DNA of 64,000 bases, taken from NCBI RefSeq assembly GCF_900105065.1, contig NZ_LT629749.1:4588001-4652000 (forward strand), in the 5' to 3' direction. Each line of letters opens with the position of its first letter. Position 1 is the stretch's first letter. This document shows positions 15,047-22,445 of the stretch, in pieces. Under the pieces are notes generated by a model. It was not told where the DNA came from. It did no database searches and was given only the letters and a program-made list of their open reading frames with translations. The position numbers and the translations under genes were made by a program. This stretch comes from Friedmanniella luteola. GTDB lineage: Bacteria > Actinomycetota > Actinomycetes > Propionibacteriales > Propionibacteriaceae.

Positions 15047-15076
15047 GCCGGCGGGTCCGGGGCCGGCCCCGGCTCA
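15044..15076. terminator. Bidirectional terminator overlapping two convergent stop codons
   Basis: TGAGCCGG (15044-15051) pairs with CCGGCTCA (15069-15076), and a 16-nt palindrome CCGGGGCCGGCCCCGG (15057-15072) lies inside. The first three bases are the topoisomerase stop; the last three are the complement of the CorA stop. One structure thus serves both genes. Confidence 0.6.
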
Positions 15077-16057
15077 CCACCAGCCCTGGCGCTTCGCCCA
15101 GCGCAGCAGGATCAGGGAGAGGGACACCATCGCCGCGAGGAGGATGACCAGCGGCCACCACAGCGTGCGGTCGTTGACGATGACGTTCATGCCCACGATC
15201 GAGGAGAGCGCCGTGACCGGGAGCGTGACGGCGGCGATCACCGCGAGCCGCTCGGCCGCGATCGTCATCTTGGTGTCGGTCCGGGCCCGGTAGAACTCGG
15301 TCACGCCCGTCAGGAAGTCCAGCTGACTCTGGCTGATCCGGGACACGCGCTCGTACTGGTCGAGGAGGTCCTTCAGCAGCGCCCGTCCCTCCCTCGGCAC
15401 GAAGGTCGCGAGCCTGATGGCCCGCTTGTAGATCTCAGCGCTCTGCGACGCCATCGTCCGGATGGTCAGCAGCTCGTGCCGGGCGGTGAACAGGGCGGTG
15501 AGGAAGGCCTGGGGCTCCTCGTCCGCCGCCCCCATCACCCGCTGCTCCAGCAGCCCCACCTGCCGGGCGAGGTCACCGACCAGCGCCTCCTCCCGCCGGG
15601 CGATCGCCGACACGACGGCGTAGGCCAGGGCGAACGGCGAGACGGGCCGGAGCCGGCCGGCCTCCAGGCGGGCGGTCACCTGGCGGGTCTCGGCCAGCGC
15701 GCGGTCCAGCGGCACGACCGGGTTGAGCGGCCCGTGCACGGTCACCAGCAGGTGCTCGCTGATGAACTGGTCGAGCTCGAGGTAGTGCACGTGGCCACCG
15801 GTGCCGATCTCGGGCGCGTGCAGGGCGACGAACAGGTGGTCGGGGTAGACGTGCACCCGGGGCGTGTGGTTGCGCTGCCGGGCCTCGGCGACGGCCATCG
15901 GGTGGAACCCGAGCTCGGCCAGCAGGATCCGCTCGGCGTCGTCGTCGCAGACGGGGATGTCCAGCCAGACGAAGCCGCCGTCGCGCTGCCGGAGCTCGTG
16001 GAGCTCGCCGGGGTCGCAGAGGCGGGCGCCGTCGGGACTCACCCAGCGCAGCTCCAT
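15074..16057 (-). CDS. CorA-family magnesium/cobalt transporter
   Basis: A 327-aa member of the CorA family. A large cytoplasmic N-terminal domain (LDIPVCDDDAERILLAELGF, HVYPDHLFVALHAPE) and a long helix lead to two C-terminal transmembrane helices (about 265-288 and 298-318). The hallmark GMN filter is present in SSIVGMNVIV. The GMN motif marks divalent cation channels of the pentameric CorA type. The start at 16057 is supported by a leaderless-type box (CAGGAT, 6 nt upstream) and by family length; the open frame runs 11 codons further 5'. Ends inside a terminator shared with topoisomerase IB. Confidence 0.88.
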   Translation of the reverse strand: MELRWVSPDGARLCDPGELHELRQRDGGFVWLDIPVCDDDAERILLAELGFHPMAVAEARQRNHTPRVHVYPDHLFVALHAPEIGTGGHVHYLELDQFISEHLLVTVHGPLNPVVPLDRALAETRQVTARLEAGRLRPVSPFALAYAVVSAIARREEALVGDLARQVGLLEQRVMGAADEEPQAFLTALFTARHELLTIRTMASQSAEIYKRAIRLATFVPREGRALLKDLLDQYERVSRISQSQLDFLTGVTEFYRARTDTKMTIAAERLAVIAAVTLPVTALSSIVGMNVIVNDRTLWWPLVILLAAMVSLSLILLRWAKRQGWW

Positions 16058-16063
16058 GCGGCC

Positions 16064-16069
16064 ATCCTG
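16064..16069 (-). promoter_or_regulatory. -10 box for a leaderless corA transcript
   Basis: On the minus strand CAGGAT is followed by GGCCGC (6 nt) and the ATG at 16057. This fixes the start codon choice and predicts that the mRNA begins at the ATG. Confidence 0.5.
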
Positions 16070-16156
16070 CGCCACGGGGCGTCCCGCCACCAGGGCGGCG
16101 AGGAGCGGGCACGTCCGGCTCGCGCACCGCGAGCCGGACCCGGGCCGCGGTGGTGG

Positions 16157-18019
16157 TCAGGACGCAGCGGGCTCCGGGGTCGGGCGTGGTCGCAGGGTCG
16201 AGAGGTCGAGCTGGTCGGCCGGCGCCGGGCGGGCGTAGAGGTAGCCCTGGGCGTGGGTGGCGCCCAGCTCGCGCAGCACGTCGGCCTGGCTCACGCGCTC
16301 CACGCCCTCGACGACCACCCGGAGGCCCAGCTCGTGGCCCATGGTCAGCAGCGCCTGCATGAACCGCCGGGTGCGCGGGTTCGTGTCGACGTCGGAGGTG
16401 AACCCGCGGTCGATCTTGACGACGTCGAGGGGGATCGTCCGCAGGTGCAGCAGGGAGGAGTAGCCCGTGCCGAAGTCGTCGAGGGCCAGCCGGAACCCCG
16501 CTGCGTGCAGCTCCTCGGCGATGACGGCCGCGGCGTCCGGGTCGTCGAGCAGGGCGTCCTCGGTGATCTCGAGGGTCAGCTGACGGGGGTGGACCCCGGC
16601 CCCGAGCACCTGAGCGGTCAGCTGACCGGGGAAGGCCGGGTCCTTCAGCAGCCCGGGCGGGACGTTGACCGCGACCCGGAGCCGGTCGTGGCCCAGCGTG
16701 CGGCGCCACTGCCGCAGCTGGGCGCACGCCCGGCCGACCATCAGCGTCGTGAGCGCCGGCAGCAGCCGGCTGCGGGCGGCCAACGGGATGAAGACGTCGG
16801 GGCCCACCGGGCGTCCCTGGTGGGTCCACCGCGCCAGGCACTCGACCCCGACCACGGTCAGGGTGTCCAGGGCGACGACGGGCTGGTAGACCTCCTGGAT
16901 CTCACCGTTCTCGATGGCCTCGCGCAGGGGCTCGCGGAGCTGCAGGTCGCGCGCCTCGGGCAGCCGCATCGTCGGCTGGTAGACGGTGGACTGGAACTTC
17001 CCGCCCCTCTTCGCCGTGTAGAGCGCGACGTCGGCCTGGGTGAGGAGGACCTCCGCCCCGACGCCGTGGGTCCCGGGCTCGAGGGCGGCGACGCCCACGC
17101 TGACCCCCACCTTGATCCGCTGGCCACCGACCTGGAAGGGCTCGTCGAGGGCCGCCATGACCCGCTCGGCGACCCGCTGGGCTCCCTGCAGACCTCCTCG
17201 ACCGCCGCTGGGCTCCAGGAGGACGGCGAACTCGTCGCCCCCCATCCGGGCGAGCGTGTCCCCGGCCCGCACCGCCGCCTGCAGCCGCCGGGAGAGCCCG
17301 ACAAGCAGCGCGTCCCCGCCGCCGTGGCCGAAGGCGTCGTTGACCGCCTTGAAGTCGTCGACGTCCAGGGTCAGGACGGCGACCGGGCGCTGGTCGCGCG
17401 CGTGCAGGGCGAGGGCGTGCTCGAGCCGGTCGTAGAACAGGGCACGGTTCGGCAGGCTCGTCAGCTCGTCGTGGAAGGCCCGCCAGCGGAGGGTGGCCTC
17501 CCGCTCCCGGGCGTCCAGCTGCAGCCGCTCACCGGTGAGGATCTGCCCCAGGAGCGTGGCCAGCAGCTGCAGGAGGGGAGCATGCCGCTCGAGGACCGCG
17601 CTCTCCTGCCGGTCCGGGTCGGACGCGCACAGCGTGCCGAAGAGCTCGCCGTCGCCCGTCCGGATCGGCACCCCGACGTAGGCGCCGACGGCCAGGCCGG
17701 CAGCGGCGCTGAGGGCGGCATACCGGGGCACCGCCCTGATGTCGGCCGCGAGCTGCGGGGCGAGCCCGGCGACCATGTACTGGCAGAAGGACTCCGACCA
17801 CGCGTTGGAGTCGCCCACCGCGGCGCGGCCGCTCTGGTCGCGCAGGTGCAGGTAGACCTGTCGGTCACCCTCGGCGTCGTGGGCCGTGACCGCCCAGAAG
17901 CTCATCGGGATCAGGGTCCGCAGGTAGTCGAGCACGCGTTCCGACGCCTCGTCGAACGACATCAGGGCCGTCAGCGCCGGCGGCACCAGGGCCTGCTCGG
18001 TGGTCGCCCCTGCGGTCAT
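16157..18019 (-). CDS. GAF-GGDEF-EAL cyclic-di-GMP signalling protein
   Basis: Soluble dual-domain c-di-GMP protein of 620 aa. An N-terminal GAF-type sensor domain occupies about 15-165. A GGDEF domain with intact GGDEF (RMGGDEFAVLL) follows, and an RxxD inhibitory site (RAGD) lies exactly five residues before it, so cyclase activity with product inhibition is plausible. In the C-terminal EAL domain the signature reads ECL (VGVECLARW); the metal-binding Glu is kept, and the second motif DDFGTGYSSL and EITED are intact, so phosphodiesterase activity is also plausible. The ATG at 18019 is the likely start, with a weak upstream site. The net activity is unknown. Confidence 0.88.
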   Translation of the reverse strand: MTAGATTEQALVPPALTALMSFDEASERVLDYLRTLIPMSFWAVTAHDAEGDRQVYLHLRDQSGRAAVGDSNAWSESFCQYMVAGLAPQLAADIRAVPRYAALSAAAGLAVGAYVGVPIRTGDGELFGTLCASDPDRQESAVLERHAPLLQLLATLLGQILTGERLQLDAREREATLRWRAFHDELTSLPNRALFYDRLEHALALHARDQRPVAVLTLDVDDFKAVNDAFGHGGGDALLVGLSRRLQAAVRAGDTLARMGGDEFAVLLEPSGGRGGLQGAQRVAERVMAALDEPFQVGGQRIKVGVSVGVAALEPGTHGVGAEVLLTQADVALYTAKRGGKFQSTVYQPTMRLPEARDLQLREPLREAIENGEIQEVYQPVVALDTLTVVGVECLARWTHQGRPVGPDVFIPLAARSRLLPALTTLMVGRACAQLRQWRRTLGHDRLRVAVNVPPGLLKDPAFPGQLTAQVLGAGVHPRQLTLEITEDALLDDPDAAAVIAEELHAAGFRLALDDFGTGYSSLLHLRTIPLDVVKIDRGFTSDVDTNPRTRRFMQALLTMGHELGLRVVVEGVERVSQADVLRELGATHAQGYLYARPAPADQLDLSTLRPRPTPEPAAS

Positions 18020-18194
18020 CGGGTTCCGTCCGTCGACGGCCCACGGAAGTGCCGGGACCGGTCCTCGACGCACCTGGCGCGCTGGTCGAGCTGCCATCCC
18101 CCGAGGAGTGCGTCCGGCGATCATAGCCACACGGGACGGCCGACCCCGACGACCGAGGCCGGGCAGCGCGCTGCGGCGAGGTGGGACAGGAGGG

Positions 18195-18238
18195 GTGGGC
18201 CTCAGTGGACGTGAACCACTGACCTCTGCCTCATCAGG
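18195..18238 (+). repeat. Partial copy of the tRNA-Ile 3' half (attachment-site-like)
   Basis: This 44-nt stretch matches 22371-22414, the 3' half of the tRNA-Ile gene from anticodon stem to acceptor end, at 41 of 44 positions and in the same orientation. The 5' half of the tRNA is absent. A direct repeat of a tRNA 3' end some 4.2 kb away on its downstream side is the usual trace of integration by a tyrosine recombinase. The gap 18020-18194 upstream shows nothing else recognisable. Confidence 0.82.
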
Positions 18239-18397
18239 TCGACCTCGACGGGCGGAGCCAGCCAGTTGTGAGCGTGGTGTCGGGCCACCGTGGTCCAGGC
18301 GCGTCGGCGGTCAGGCGACCTGGTAGTCACTCACGTCGTCACGCAGCGGCTCGATGCAGTGCCTTGCGTTGCGGGCCTAGGAAGCACGGCTGAGGCA

Positions 18398-18676
18398 TCA
18401 GCGACCGAACCGACCGGTCCTTCGCTTCGAGTCCCAGCGAGCAAGCTGGTGAAGGTCGGACTCGTCGTACCCGACCGATGCCATGGCCTGCTGGATCTGC
18501 GCTAGAGACACACCTGTGGCCTCTAGTTCCGCCAGGAGGGGAGGCAGCATCGCCTCGGTCTGACTCGTTCGAGCCCAGCCGTTGTTTCCCACCACGTCCA
18601 GGTGGTTCAGCAGAGTGGACTGCTCATCGGTGAAGCCCAGCCCTTCGACGTTCGGTGGTTTGCGAACCACGTCCAC
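18398..18676 (-). CDS. Small hypothetical protein inside the tRNA-Ile element
   Basis: A 92-aa protein of natural-looking composition with a helical core (EAMLPPLLAELEATGVSLAQ, IQQAMASVGYDESDLHQLAR) and a basic C-terminus (WDSKRRTGRFGR). No signal peptide or membrane segment. I do not recognise a family. The codon usage is less GC-biased than neighbouring core genes, fitting acquired DNA. The start could be GTG at 18676 or GTG at 18670; a TAGCGT box ends 6 nt before the latter, which would suit a leaderless transcript. The flanking gap 18239-18397 shows nothing recognisable. Confidence 0.55.
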   Translation of the reverse strand: MDVVRKPPNVEGLGFTDEQSTLLNHLDVVGNNGWARTSQTEAMLPPLLAELEATGVSLAQIQQAMASVGYDESDLHQLARWDSKRRTGRFGR

Positions 18677-19116
18677 ACGCTACGCGGGGCGGCGCGGCCC
18701 GCAGCGAAGCGAGGACACGCGCCGTCGGCCGAGCGTAGCGAGGCCCTTGATCTAGAAGAGCCAGACGCAGCAGTGCACGCCCTGGGCCCTGTGCCTCCAG
18801 GGTCCTGGACCGCTGCCCGGGGCCGCTTGTCCTGTGGCCGCTGAGACGCCCGCCAGGGGAGCTCGTCCCGGCTGCGCGCAACCGGGCCGGGGGTCGCCTC
18901 ACGGCAACCGAGGGCCGGCAGTAGCGTTCAAGCCGACGTCGAGGCTTCAACCACGTGGTCCACATCGACGCCACAGGCCTCAAGGGGCTGCTCATGCCAT
19001 GTCCGCTCTGCGCGGGACCGCTTCGTCTGGAGAATCTCGACCGTCCGTCTACGTGGGTGGTGAACAGCTCGAAGAATGCGAGCTTGCCGAAGCTTCGGCC
19101 GCCCGGGTCAGGGCCG
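18677..19116. other. Island stretch without intact genes
   Basis: No supported gene. It holds short degenerate words CAGCGAAGCGAGGA and CGAGCGTAGCGAGGC near 18707-18745. Frames here are open only because of high GC and show no family similarity. Confidence 0.5.
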
Positions 19117-19359
19117 GTCACAGTGTTCGCCAGCGACGGCGTGTCCTGGGGTGTCGACCAGATCCAGTACCGAGACAACGCAGGCCCTTGCCCGGACGCC
19201 TGCCAGGCCCGGACGGTGGCCCAGGTCGGGGACGCTTCCCGGGCGGCCGATCGGTGGCCCTGCAGGGCCCGCGTCGCCACCGAGCTTGGTGTCGGCACCA
19301 GCCTGTCCCTGCCGGTGACCGGAGCCGACGACACCTACGGGGCGCTCGACCTGGAAGCG
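19117..19359 (+). pseudogene. Remnant of a GAF domain from a GAF-ANTAR-type regulator
   Basis: The translation contains VTVFASDGVSWGVDQIQYRD, NAGPCPDACQARTV, RWPCRARVATELGVGTSLSL and TYGALDLEA. This follows the order of the GAF domain in actinobacterial GAF-ANTAR antiterminators (typically ...LDxLQYxLGEGPCLDA...RWPxFAxxAxxLGVRSxLSLPL...GALNLYA). The start of the domain and the entire ANTAR helix bundle are missing, and the frame runs on into unrelated Arg/Pro-rich sequence. I therefore call it a decayed fragment. The region 19360-19640 shows nothing else. Confidence 0.62.
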
Positions 19360-19640
19360 TGCGCCGGGACCGGCGCGGGAGAACCCCCGGACGTCGCCGC
19401 GTCAGGCCCGCGACGCCCGGGGCTGGCTTACGGCCGGAGGTCGAGCCCGCGGCTTCGATCCCTCCCGATCGTCGCCGCTCCCCCGAAATCTGCTGCAAGC
19501 CCAGATCTGTGTGTCCGCAGTCCGATCGTGAGGTACCGCGGGCACCAGCAGCGATATCCAACACTCAGGCTGCACCCCGGCGCATCGGCAGAACGGCCGA
19601 TCAGGCCAGGTGGCGCGGGCGGCGCGGGGTGGGGGGCCCG

Positions 19641-20786
19641 ATGAAACCATCAGCGGACGCAGGGCGGATCGCGACCGAGGTGTCGCAGATCGCGGCGACG
19701 CCGGGCAGCCCGGCTGAACGTGCTGCAGCGCTGCTCGAGCCGCTGCACCGGCTGCTGTCGTTCGACGGGGCGTGGCTGGCGCTGCGCGACGAGCAGCGCC
19801 GCGGACACCGCCCACTGGTCAGCCTCGGCTGGGACCAGCGCACCGCCGCCTACCTGGACGGACCGGTCCTGGTCGACGAGATCGAACAACTCGGGATGAC
19901 CCACTCCCGCACCCCGCTCCGGGTCGCCGACTCCCCCACTCACGTTACCGAGATGCGCGCCTGGGCCGAGTGCCTGCTGCCGGCCGGCTTCCGCGAAGGC
20001 CTGGGCCTGTGCCTGTTCTCCGCTGACGGTCGGCACCTGGGGTTGCTGGGCCTGTTCACCGGCACCCCCACCGCCCCGTCCGACGCCGCCCGCGACCTGC
20101 TCGCCGCCCTCGGCCCCACGCTGGCCCGGGCCATCGACCCCCTGCGCTCGGCCGCAGCAGCGGTGCAGCTGGTGCACGGCGCGACCGCCGCGGTGATCCT
20201 CACCCGAACAGGCGGCGTGCAGGCGCTGCCCGGGCTGCCCGATCACGCCGCGTTGCGCCCCGGCTCCCCCGTGCTGGCCGCGGCCCACGAGATGCTCGAC
20301 GGGCCGCAGACCTCGTTCCTGCACCCCGCACCGGCAGAGCCCGGAGGCTATCTGCGTGTGACCGCCCTGGACGGGCCCGACAACGCCCCGCCCCACCTGA
20401 GCGCGATCGTCGTGCTCTCACCGTGCGGCGACCTGCAAGCGCTGACCCGCCGCGAGCTCGAGGTCCTCGGCCTGCTGATCGCCGGCTGCCACAACGCCGA
20501 GGCTGCTCAACGCCTCGCCGTCACCCAGCGCACCATCGCCACCCACATCGAACACATCCTCATCAAGCTCGACGCCGACACCCGAGCACTCGCCGCCGTC
20601 CGCGCCCAACGACGCGGGCTCTACATCCCACCCACACTCCTGGCATGCACGACCAGCCCACCCCAGAGCCGAGAGCGAACCCCTCGACAAACACCGAAGA
20701 ACCCGGACGTCCTTGATCTGGGTGAACGGAGGAGCCTCGGGGACGTCCGGAAGGTCGCGCCTGTGCCGAGGCCCGCCGCCGGGTAG
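19641..20786 (+). CDS. GAF-like LuxR-family transcriptional regulator
   Basis: A 381-aa protein. Residues 10-170 resemble a GAF sensor (ERAAALLEPLHRLLSFDGAW, PAGFREGLGLCLFSADGRHL, GLLGLFTGTP). A linker follows, then a LuxR helix-turn-helix at about 265-325 (LTRRELEVLGLLIAGCHNAE, RTIATHIEHILIKLDA). The last 45 residues are Pro/Arg-rich and look like read-through beyond the natural domain end. The ATG at 19641 follows a G-rich site. It is the best-preserved regulator inside the tRNA-Ile element. Ligand and targets are unknown; the aldo/keto reductase 79 nt downstream is the obvious candidate target. Confidence 0.78.
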   Translation: MKPSADAGRIATEVSQIAATPGSPAERAAALLEPLHRLLSFDGAWLALRDEQRRGHRPLVSLGWDQRTAAYLDGPVLVDEIEQLGMTHSRTPLRVADSPTHVTEMRAWAECLLPAGFREGLGLCLFSADGRHLGLLGLFTGTPTAPSDAARDLLAALGPTLARAIDPLRSAAAAVQLVHGATAAVILTRTGGVQALPGLPDHAALRPGSPVLAAAHEMLDGPQTSFLHPAPAEPGGYLRVTALDGPDNAPPHLSAIVVLSPCGDLQALTRRELEVLGLLIAGCHNAEAAQRLAVTQRTIATHIEHILIKLDADTRALAAVRAQRRGLYIPPTLLACTTSPPQSRERTPRQTPKNPDVLDLGERRSLGDVRKVAPVPRPAAG

Positions 20787-20864
20787 GAGGATGGCGGGAT
20801 GCGGGGTCCCCGGGATGTCCCGGCCCGCGTCCCACCGCAGCACACGGAAGGAAAGGGATCGCAG

Positions 20865-21698
20865 ATGCGACGGATCGCGCTGCCGAGCGGGGAGTCCGTC
20901 CCCGTGCTGGGCCAGGGCACCTGGGGCTGGGGGGAGGACCCCGGTCGCCGCGGCGACGAGGTCGCGGCTCTGCGCACCGGCCTGGACCTGGGCATGACCC
21001 TGGTCGACACTGCCGAGATGTACGCCGGCGGCGGCGCGGAGGAGGTGCTCGGTGAGGCACTGGCGGGTCGCCGCGACTCGGCGTTCGTGGTCAGCAAGGT
21101 GCTGCCGTCGCACGCGTCGCGTTCCGGTACGATCTCTGCCTGCGAGCGCAGCCTGGAGCGCCTGCGCACCGACCGGATCGATCTCTACCTGCTGCACTGG
21201 CAGGGCGGGCACCCGCTCGAGGACACCCTCGCGGCCTTCCAACAGCTGGTCGACGTCGGGAAGATCCGGTACTGGGGCGTCAGCAACTTCGACTACCTCG
21301 CCCTCACCGACCTCCTGGACCTGCCGGGCAGCGGCGGGCTGGCCACCGACCAGGTGCTGTACAACCTGTCGCGGCGGGGGCCGGAGTACGACCTGCTGCC
21401 CTGGTGCGCCGACCACGAGCTGCCGGTGATGGCGTACTCGCCGATCGAGCAGGGCCGCATCCTGGGCGACGCGACGCTGGGCGATGTCGCGGCCCGGCAC
21501 GGCATCAGCCCGGCGGCGGCGGCCCTGGCCTGGGTGCTGCGCCGCGACTCGCTCTGCACCATCCCCAAGGCGAGCAACCCGGAGCACGTGCGCGACAACG
21601 CCACGGCCCTGGACGCGGAGCTGACCCGCGAGGACCTGGATGCTCTCGACCGTGCGTTCCCGCCGCCGAACGGACCGCGGCCACTGGAGATCTTGTGA
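20865..21698 (+). CDS. Aldo/keto reductase
   Basis: A 277-aa NADPH-dependent oxidoreductase of the AKR TIM-barrel family. The catalytic tetrad is visible: Asp and Tyr in VDTAEMYAGG, Lys in FVVSKVLPSH and His in LYLLHWQGG. Cofactor-binding segments near the C-terminus read CTIPKASNPEHVRDN. Closest in look to the AKR5/YeaE-like group acting on small aldehydes such as methylglyoxal, but the substrate cannot be fixed. The ATG at 20865 was chosen for its AAGGAAAGGGA site; the frame is open 22 codons further 5'. Intact, unlike its neighbours in the element. Confidence 0.88.
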   Translation: MRRIALPSGESVPVLGQGTWGWGEDPGRRGDEVAALRTGLDLGMTLVDTAEMYAGGGAEEVLGEALAGRRDSAFVVSKVLPSHASRSGTISACERSLERLRTDRIDLYLLHWQGGHPLEDTLAAFQQLVDVGKIRYWGVSNFDYLALTDLLDLPGSGGLATDQVLYNLSRRGPEYDLLPWCADHELPVMAYSPIEQGRILGDATLGDVAARHGISPAAAALAWVLRRDSLCTIPKASNPEHVRDNATALDAELTREDLDALDRAFPPPNGPRPLEIL

Positions 21699-21922
21699 TC
21701 TGCCGGAGGGTGCAGCCCGGTCCGCACGAGGACCAGGAAGCCCCCGGCGTCAAACCCCGGGTCGGGAGATCGGGCCGAGTCAGCTCGTCACCTCTTCCTG
21801 ACCCGGTACACGCCTTGACCTGGTCCACCACACCAGCACCTCGGGCGCGGTGACAACTTCAGGGCTGCCCGAGGATCACGTCGCGCGGGCCAGAAGATCC
21901 CGAACCGGGACCCGAGCCCGCT

Positions 21923-22157
21923 GCTCAGGACGACGGCGGCGGGTCGGTCGGCGACTTGGAACTGTTCTTCGACCTCGTGTTCGTCTACGCCATGTCGCAG
22001 GTGACCGAGCTGGTGCTGGCTGACGCTGGCAGCGAGCGCACTCCCGACCGCGTTCAGCACTGGGGTCCTCGTCTTCGGGCTTGCACTGCTCGCCGTCCGC
22101 GTCATTCACCTCGTGATGTTCGGCGTGGCAGTCCGGACAACGTCGCTTTCACGCTGA
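21923..22157 (+). pseudogene. Remnant of a low-temperature-requirement A (LtrA)-like protein
   Basis: One frame encodes DLELFFDLVFVYAMSQVTEL followed by VLAD, the unmistakable N-terminal signature of LtrA-family membrane proteins. From about 22020 a different frame continues with a hydrophobic stretch (LTLAASALPTAFSTGVLVFG, ALLAVRVIHLVMF) that would fit the last helices of the same family, then stops at 22157. A full LtrA is about 350-400 aa, so most of the gene has been deleted and the ends are joined out of frame. The rest of 21699-22371 shows nothing intact. Confidence 0.62.
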
Positions 22158-22371
22158 CCCGTTACGGCGGTCTCTTCGAGGACGGGTCGGATGAGGCGGT
22201 CGATCGCCTGCATGCGCTGCTGAGGAGCCGGGTGAGCCGACCGCCATACGTGGTCGAGCTGCGAGAAGAAGGGTCCCGGTGAGTCCCGCACGCCCCCGAG
22301 GCCGACGGGCTGCGGAAGACCTGCCGGAAGCGGCCTAGCCCTCGCCCTGGTCAGCGAGGATTCGGGGTGGG

Positions 22372-22445
22372 TGGGCCTAAGTGGACTTGAACCACTGACC
22401 TCTGCCTTATCAGGGCAGCGCTCTAACCGACTGAGCTATAGGCCC
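22372..22445 (-). tRNA. tRNA-Ile (GAT)
   Basis: A 74-nt cloverleaf read on the minus strand: acceptor GGGCCTA / TAGGCCC, D stem GCTC / GAGC, anticodon stem CTGCC / GGCAG around CTGATAA (anticodon GAT), variable loop AGGTC, T stem AGTGG / CCACT with loop TTCAAGT, discriminator A. The CCA end is not encoded. It lies downstream of gyrB-gyrA-DUF3566, its usual place in actinobacteria. Its 3' half is duplicated at 18195-18238, marking it as an integration site. Confidence 0.96.

Follow-up and report, generated by a model that had tools for sequence, protein, structure and literature searches.

Tyrosine recombinases commonly act on the segment of a tRNA gene that extends from the anticodon loop to the 3' end. 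Among the integrative elements that use such sites, the actinomycete integrative and conjugative elements (AICEs) are described in the text of PMC3218068 as combining an integrase, the RepSA replication initiator and an FtsK/SpoIIIE-family protein. The same text reports that RepSA binds and nicks a double-strand origin (dso) and that pSAM2 belongs to the pC194 family by its nick site. It also describes Frankia elements without tra or rep genes, which its authors regard as possible remnants or mobilizable elements. Here, we analyze a 64,000-nt window of the Friedmanniella luteola genome (contig NZ_LT629749.1, positions 4,588,001 to 4,652,000), in which a tRNA-Ile gene near gyrA is adjoined by a segment bounded by two copies of the tRNA 3' end (window positions 18195-22370). 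This segment is very probably an element that entered tRNA-Ile through site-specific integration, has since decayed by deletion and can no longer move unaided.

Results

ARAGORN detects a single tRNA in the window, tRNA-Ile(GAT), at positions 22370-22445 on the - strand, which is also matched by Rfam. The tRNA is the integration target, and its 3' half constitutes the tRNA-proximal attachment (att) copy. The 44-nt core of this copy (22371-22414, + strand) spans the region from the anticodon loop to the tRNA 3' end and is shared with congeners. As in the original prediction, the core recurs in direct orientation at 18195-18238 (+ strand) with 41 of 44 bases identical, and the repeat is extended by two matching bases just beyond the core (22369-22370 and 18193-18194). 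When the core was scored at all window positions on both strands, the second-best site reached only 23 of 44. The segment thus has at both ends a direct repeat that overlaps the tRNA 3' end, the arrangement of a tRNA-targeted integrative element, and the distal copy would be the displaced old tRNA 3' end. The objection that 18195-18238 belongs to a conserved noncoding RNA, which had been raised with the prediction, was ruled out, since Rfam reports no family there at E<=1. At this threshold, Rfam lists the tRNA plus sub-gathering-score matches to 'Plastid-ycf2' (antisense to the tRNA) and to a snoRNA at 20470-20568.

A remnant of a tyrosine recombinase gene is located beside the tRNA at 22136-22282 on the + strand. 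The intact integrase found at the same tRNA-Ile in the congeneric genome G006 matches positions 22136-22255 in tblastn (80% over 40 aa, E 6e-13), as does the integrase of genome G013 (79% over 29 aa, E 2e-10). At the DNA level, positions 22137-22224 are 85% identical to G006 across 88 nt. The remnant contains an RYGGLF sequence, which we take to be the box holding the catalytic tyrosine, and its stop codon is separated from the att core by 88 nt, versus 92 nt in G006. From these similarities, 22136-22282 appears to encode the C-terminus of a tyrosine recombinase; only about the last 50 residues of the element's integrase are left, at the place expected beside tRNA-Ile. As to the search for an integrase in relatives that had been proposed with the prediction, the G006 integrase belongs to a 20 kb element with a second att about 20 kb off. 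Besides int, this element encodes RepSA (PF20199, E 4e-86), an FtsK/SpoIIIE-family protein (E 2e-12) and further proteins with weak TrbL and AAA_10 matches, and it contains the hairpin motif described below (32.7 bits). The G006 element has the composition given for AICEs in the text of PMC3218068 and looks like an AICE.

The use of this tRNA as an integration site was surveyed by querying 20 genomes of the genus, including that of F. luteola, with the tRNA and its gyrA-side flank. Isolated matches to the tRNA-Ile 3' segment are present in 10 of the 20 genomes (G000, G004, G006, G007, G009, G012, G013, G014, G016 and G018). The match covers 27 nt in G016 and 43 nt at 88% in G018, where the 3'-segment match was found and tRNA-Ile itself was not. 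The match and the tRNA are located on one contig, within about 60 kb of each other, in five genomes (G000, G006, G007, G009 and G012). A PF00589 match lies no more than about 220 bp from the tRNA-Ile 3' end in at least four of the 20 genomes (G004, G006, G012 and G013); among the eight genomes with full match lists, PF00589 is found beside tRNA-Ile in one (G006). The gyrA-proximal region had been described as normally stable, a view that does not apply to this genus: tRNA-Ile near gyrA is a recurrent integration site. Shorter att-bounded segments are observed at tRNA-Ile in G007 (L041, 929-2662) and G009 (L040, 891-8135), both without PF00589 inside according to the full lists, and are perhaps similar remnants. 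The 27-nt core piece of G016 has a copy of the hairpin motif about 0.25 kb away.

A short sequence also recurs next to the core. Of 18 tRNA flanks (G001 and G018 yielded no tRNA), 8 contain the pattern CT[AGT]GTCA on the side of the core that faces the element, among them those of the window and of the four genomes with an adjacent integrase. Shuffled flanks contain the pattern with a mean of 0.075 and a maximum of 2, a significance that is overstated because the pattern was picked post hoc. In the window, the sequence is CCCTGGTCAG (22345-22354, + strand), a possible attP-arm site on the element side of the tRNA-proximal att. Its spacing to the core, 24 nt, equals that in G006 and differs by one from that in G013; these are the two genomes from which the matching integrases came. 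A 60 kb tRNA-Ile element in G012 carries a separate outer CCTGTCAG motif at its distal att (L044 about 4477, L045 about 14418), which suggests tandem elements.

The second sequence feature that ties the segment to mobile elements is a 75-nt two-hairpin motif that ends in CTTGAT (18690-18765, + strand), identified by BLAST, a covariance model and an alignment. The motif has five further BLAST matches in the F. luteola genome, each of which resides inside an element with a tRNA 3' duplication, at tRNA-Ser (69 nt), tRNA-Thr (44 nt), tRNA-Pro (89 nt), tRNA-Ala (80 nt) and tRNA-Lys (50 nt). The distance of these copies to the distal att is 0.3 to 3.4 kb, and their orientation to the tRNA is uniform, that of the window copy included. 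The genome has five RepSA genes, one per tRNA-anchored element (genome positions 214991-232668, 593269-607284, 2262805-2269307, 3234768-3250840 and 4147136-4157637). The covariance model additionally finds a weak seventh copy on the other strand at 4142931 (34 bits).

The association of the motif with integrases and RepSA extends across the genus. At E<=0.01, 13 of the 20 genomes have hits of the covariance model, 45 in total. For 17 of 22 further copies in eight genomes, a count that excludes the window copy, PF00589 lies downstream on the same strand within 20 kb, compared with a mean of 0.48 and a maximum of 5 in 2000 random placements. The genus contains 36 RepSA loci (47 matches after merging of split ones and removal of one below the cut-off), and 23 of them are preceded by the motif on the same strand at up to 22 kb, a limit chosen post hoc. 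On large contigs, the motif is upstream of RepSA at 19 of 28 loci, versus a mean of 0.33 and a maximum of 4 in 5000 random placements, for which the size of G006 C1 was a guess (900,000). As controls, the motif was found on the other strand at one of these 28 loci and downstream on the same strand at four. No copy accompanies the other 13 of the 36 loci, among which are all five of G012. A survey of 97 genomes of the family, six of them from this genus, used stricter filters for the motif and E<=1e-20 for RepSA and detected the motif in 18 and RepSA in 11 genomes. Beyond the genus, five of nine RepSA loci have the motif 2.5-5 kb upstream on the same strand, and 12 of 17 motif hits lack a neighboring RepSA. 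The motif with its CTTGA tail (window 18690-18765 and loci L058, L060-L063 and L066-L090) is associated with RepSA elements in this genus and also present in other genera of the family.

The two-hairpin architecture is also found on proteobacterial plasmids (Aeromonas, Comamonas, Nitrotoga and others; records L092-L098). A query with the proteobacterial version, taken from an Aeromonas plasmid, matched 132 of 72,556 plasmid records at E<=1e-3, some as fragments only. Plasmid L096 (motif 49.7 bits) encodes a Rep_3 initiator and a MobA/MobL match, with no RepSA among its annotated genes. The 2,953-bp plasmid L097 (29.2 bits) has an annotated MobV relaxase, and in plasmid L098 (38.8 bits) the motif lies between repA and a DNA-binding-protein gene. 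Plasmid L099 was dropped as a motif context, as its match is confined to 31 nt behind the hairpins and the model does not recognize the motif in it.

A structural alignment was made from 24 of 34 motif places, chosen by hand with ten shorter or weaker matches omitted. The two named hairpins are paired in 82.7% of cells (helix 1, 89.7%; helix 2, 69.2%), with 11 pairs that show changes on both sides and a covariation score of 0.181. None of 500 shuffles reaches these values, and when the partner is shifted by one to three columns, pairing reaches no more than 48% and covariation no more than 0.052; the structure was derived from the same sequences that scored it, which favors the structure. By this comparison, the stems of the motif appear to covary. 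Two pairs of helix 2 are mostly G.A or A.G oppositions and are replaced by G-C or C-G in five copies. GNA loops are present in 12 of the 24 copies. CTTGA follows the hairpin region in 22 of the 24 aligned copies, in four of seven weaker copies that were left out and in five of seven copies from five plasmid records, and a script places the end of the best stem right at CTTGA in 15 of the 24. RNAalifold unaided predicted hairpin 1 alone, and many shuffled sequences fold at least as well as the single window copy (z -1.45 and -0.65 for the two strands).

The remaining content of the segment is a mixture of intact and degraded genes. From the distal att inward, the order is a 92-aa frame, the two-hairpin motif, a frame with a weak GAF match, a GAF/LuxR gene, an aldo/keto reductase gene, LtrA pieces, the integrase remnant and the tRNA. 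The 92-aa open frame from the ORF list (18398-18676, - strand) starts 14 nt from the hairpin motif; it has no Pfam match, and tblastn against a set of comparison loci gave no homologue. The features that follow are on the + strand. The open frame at 18955-19644 has a weak, partial GAF match (E 0.0012, below the cut-off) and is perhaps a degraded GAF gene. Two cargo genes appear intact. One, identified by a profile match, encodes a GAF/LuxR-type regulator (19641-20786); its open frame spans 18756-20786, and the start near 19641 is our own reading. The region 19531-20657 has an 82% identical copy elsewhere in the genome (1844306-1845430). The other encodes an aldo/keto reductase (20799-21698, with an alternative start at 20865; PF00248, E 8.5e-54). 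An LtrA-family gene is represented within the element only by fragments in two frames (21947-22145; PF06772, E 8e-7 and 5e-4, both below the curated cut-off), which run into the integrase remnant. The G+C content of 500-nt windows at both ends of the element falls in the 3rd-9th percentile of the window. The predicted inventory of remnants plus a few intact genes with no recombinase is accurate for the two intact-looking genes and for the lack of an intact recombinase, but it overlooked the integrase C-terminus at 22136-22255.

An unoccupied counterpart of the locus was sought among the 20 genomes, of which G002, the nearest relative, gives the best match at this locus. G002 is collinear with the window up to 15048, the end of the topoisomerase IB gene, and again from 22363, with about 1.27 kb in between. 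This stretch may represent a serine-hydrolase-like gene, in our reading of its sequence. It was rejected as the ancestral neighbor between topoisomerase IB and the tRNA, because closely related genes in G005 and G010 are found at other places. A strain without the element had been expected to join the sequence before 18195 directly to an uninterrupted tRNA-Ile. G002 lacks the element, but it also lacks 15049-18194 and provides no such junction. The additional sequence contains a CorA gene (15074-16090) and a GAF-GGDEF-EAL gene (16157-18130), both outside the proposed element and absent from G002. Either G002 itself has changed or the window carries a compound insertion.

Discussion

Integration into tRNA-Ile followed by decay, as originally predicted, is well supported: the att core is duplicated, an integrase remnant lies where it and its distance to the core would be expected, congeners have intact elements at the same tRNA, and the segment contains an element-associated hairpin motif. 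Integration would have exchanged the 3' half of the tRNA for the element's own copy and displaced the old 3' end to 18195-18238, where three bases would have drifted later. Deletions would have removed rep, the transfer genes and most of int, so that the final ~50 codons of int came to adjoin a piece of LtrA, with the two cargo genes left in place. Self-excision is not expected, and a related integrase in trans could, in principle, still recognize both att sites.

Several observations weigh against this history. G002 lacks all of 15049-22362, which comprises CorA and GAF-GGDEF-EAL outside the proposed boundary as well as the element. Resemblance between the outer flank of the distal att and the G005 tRNA flank is so weak (P 0.07, not significant) that the latter was discarded as the ancestral outer flank. 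The G+C content in the middle of the element is ordinary. The flank motif is missing in G009 despite a second att copy, and it is found on the outer side of two of seven distal copies (G012 and G013 C84), which may reflect tandem elements. Finally, the window contains no RepSA, and searches with RepSA and translocase queries gave no significant remnant inside the element (best E 0.056), where two AICE FtsK-family proteins used as queries have no match. The three mismatches, the lack of an intact recombinase and the ordinary composition of the cargo genes would also fit a duplication that arose as a by-product of local rearrangement or as a tRNA pseudogene, with no integrative element involved. 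However, an integrase C-terminus on the expected side and at the expected distance, integrases at the same tRNA in congeners and the flank motif on the element side make this origin highly improbable, and it is strongly disfavored. A different history, compatible with integration and decay and not exclusive of it, is accretion at one tRNA, in which an older insertion of 15049-18194 with CorA and GAF-GGDEF-EAL lost its outer att by decay and was followed by 18195-22370. The absence of the entire 15049-22362 from G002 would be explained in this way; moreover, elsewhere in the genus CorA is on other contigs or more than 1 Mb from tRNA-Ile, no GGDEF/EAL match lies within 40 kb of tRNA-Ile in the other genomes, and the outer motif at the distal att of G012 is what tandem elements would show. 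Such a compound element is nevertheless unlikely, given that the window has no third copy of the att core (best remaining site 23/44), that the third-position G+C of CorA (0.97) and GGDEF/EAL (0.94) is host-like and that G002 may be the genome that lost these genes or acquired ones of its own.

For the hairpin motif, a replication or single-strand function is favored, with a dso, a single-strand origin or initiation site (sso/ssi), a single-strand promoter and an RNA function all as candidates. pC194/phiX174-type rolling-circle double-strand origins are among the closest known systems, and the nick site of the pC194 family has the form CTTGATA. The motif resembles such an origin in that, in RepSA-bearing elements, CTTGA follows the hairpins (22 of 24 copies) and the motif precedes repSA on its strand (23 of 36 loci in the genus, five of nine outside it), and a nick at CTTG|AT would accord with the RepSA nicking and the pSAM2 nick-site family reported in the text of PMC3218068. 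It differs from a rolling-circle origin in its additional presence on the Rep_3 plasmid L096, where no RepSA is annotated, so the motif is not confined to rolling-circle initiators and a simple rolling-circle origin is therefore disfavored. The copy between repA and the DNA-binding-protein gene on L098, the RepSA loci of the genus without a copy, including those of G012, and the hits beyond the genus without an adjacent RepSA also argue against a dso, which we consider doubtful. In elements with a single-stranded stage, the motif could serve as a lagging-strand start (sso/ssi) or a single-strand promoter, and such a role as single-stranded DNA is a possibility with slightly less doubt attached. 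The covarying stems, the GNA loops in half of the copies, the constant orientation and the sharing of the motif by RepSA elements and mobilizable plasmids are consistent with it, as is the opposite-strand 92-aa frame that begins 14 nt from the window copy, and single-strand promoters (PMC11541004) and the sso of an integrative and conjugative element (PMC4595007) are known precedents. On the other side, the folding of the window copy is unexceptional, an RNA function would be an alternative and the neighboring gene varies across copies; a listing of open frames shows no constant neighbor, and a promoter for one gene type was accordingly rejected. We tentatively propose that the motif is an undescribed cross-phylum signal for single-strand replication or expression that serves both proteobacterial plasmids and the RepSA integrative elements of this actinobacterial family and that can flag decayed elements once all their mobility genes are lost.

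The locus shows that one gyrA-adjacent tRNA-Ile has been used repeatedly as an integration site within one genus and that the wreck of an element still has identifiable pieces. The hairpin motif may allow gene-free detection of AICE remnants. RepSA elements and plasmids from another phylum are linked by this common folded DNA signal, the function of which is directly testable.

Compared with known systems, the window element is most likely an additional, decayed case of the tRNA-targeted integrative elements. The features that assign it to the AICEs of the genus over another kind of integrative element are the kinship of its integrase to that of an AICE-like element at the same tRNA and the hairpin motif that they have in common, no RepSA or FtsK remnant being significant. 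It resembles the Frankia remnant AICEs or mobilizable integrating elements in its missing key genes (PMC3218068) and differs from them in that it has also lost the integrase and sits in tRNA-Ile; the terms 'tRNA-Ile' and 'isoleucine' are absent from the main text of that article. A limited literature search with few terms found no published treatment of this tRNA-Ile site or of the hairpin motif. With the pSAM2-type AICEs, the locus shares a tyrosine integrase beside the tRNA 3' end and a duplicated tRNA 3' segment, to which the G006 element adds RepSA and the FtsK-family protein, whereas the window copy lacks rep, the transfer genes and the integrase except for its C-terminus. In its present state, with two flanking att sites and no recombination or transfer genes of its own, the window element is like the cis-mobilizable elements (CIMEs).

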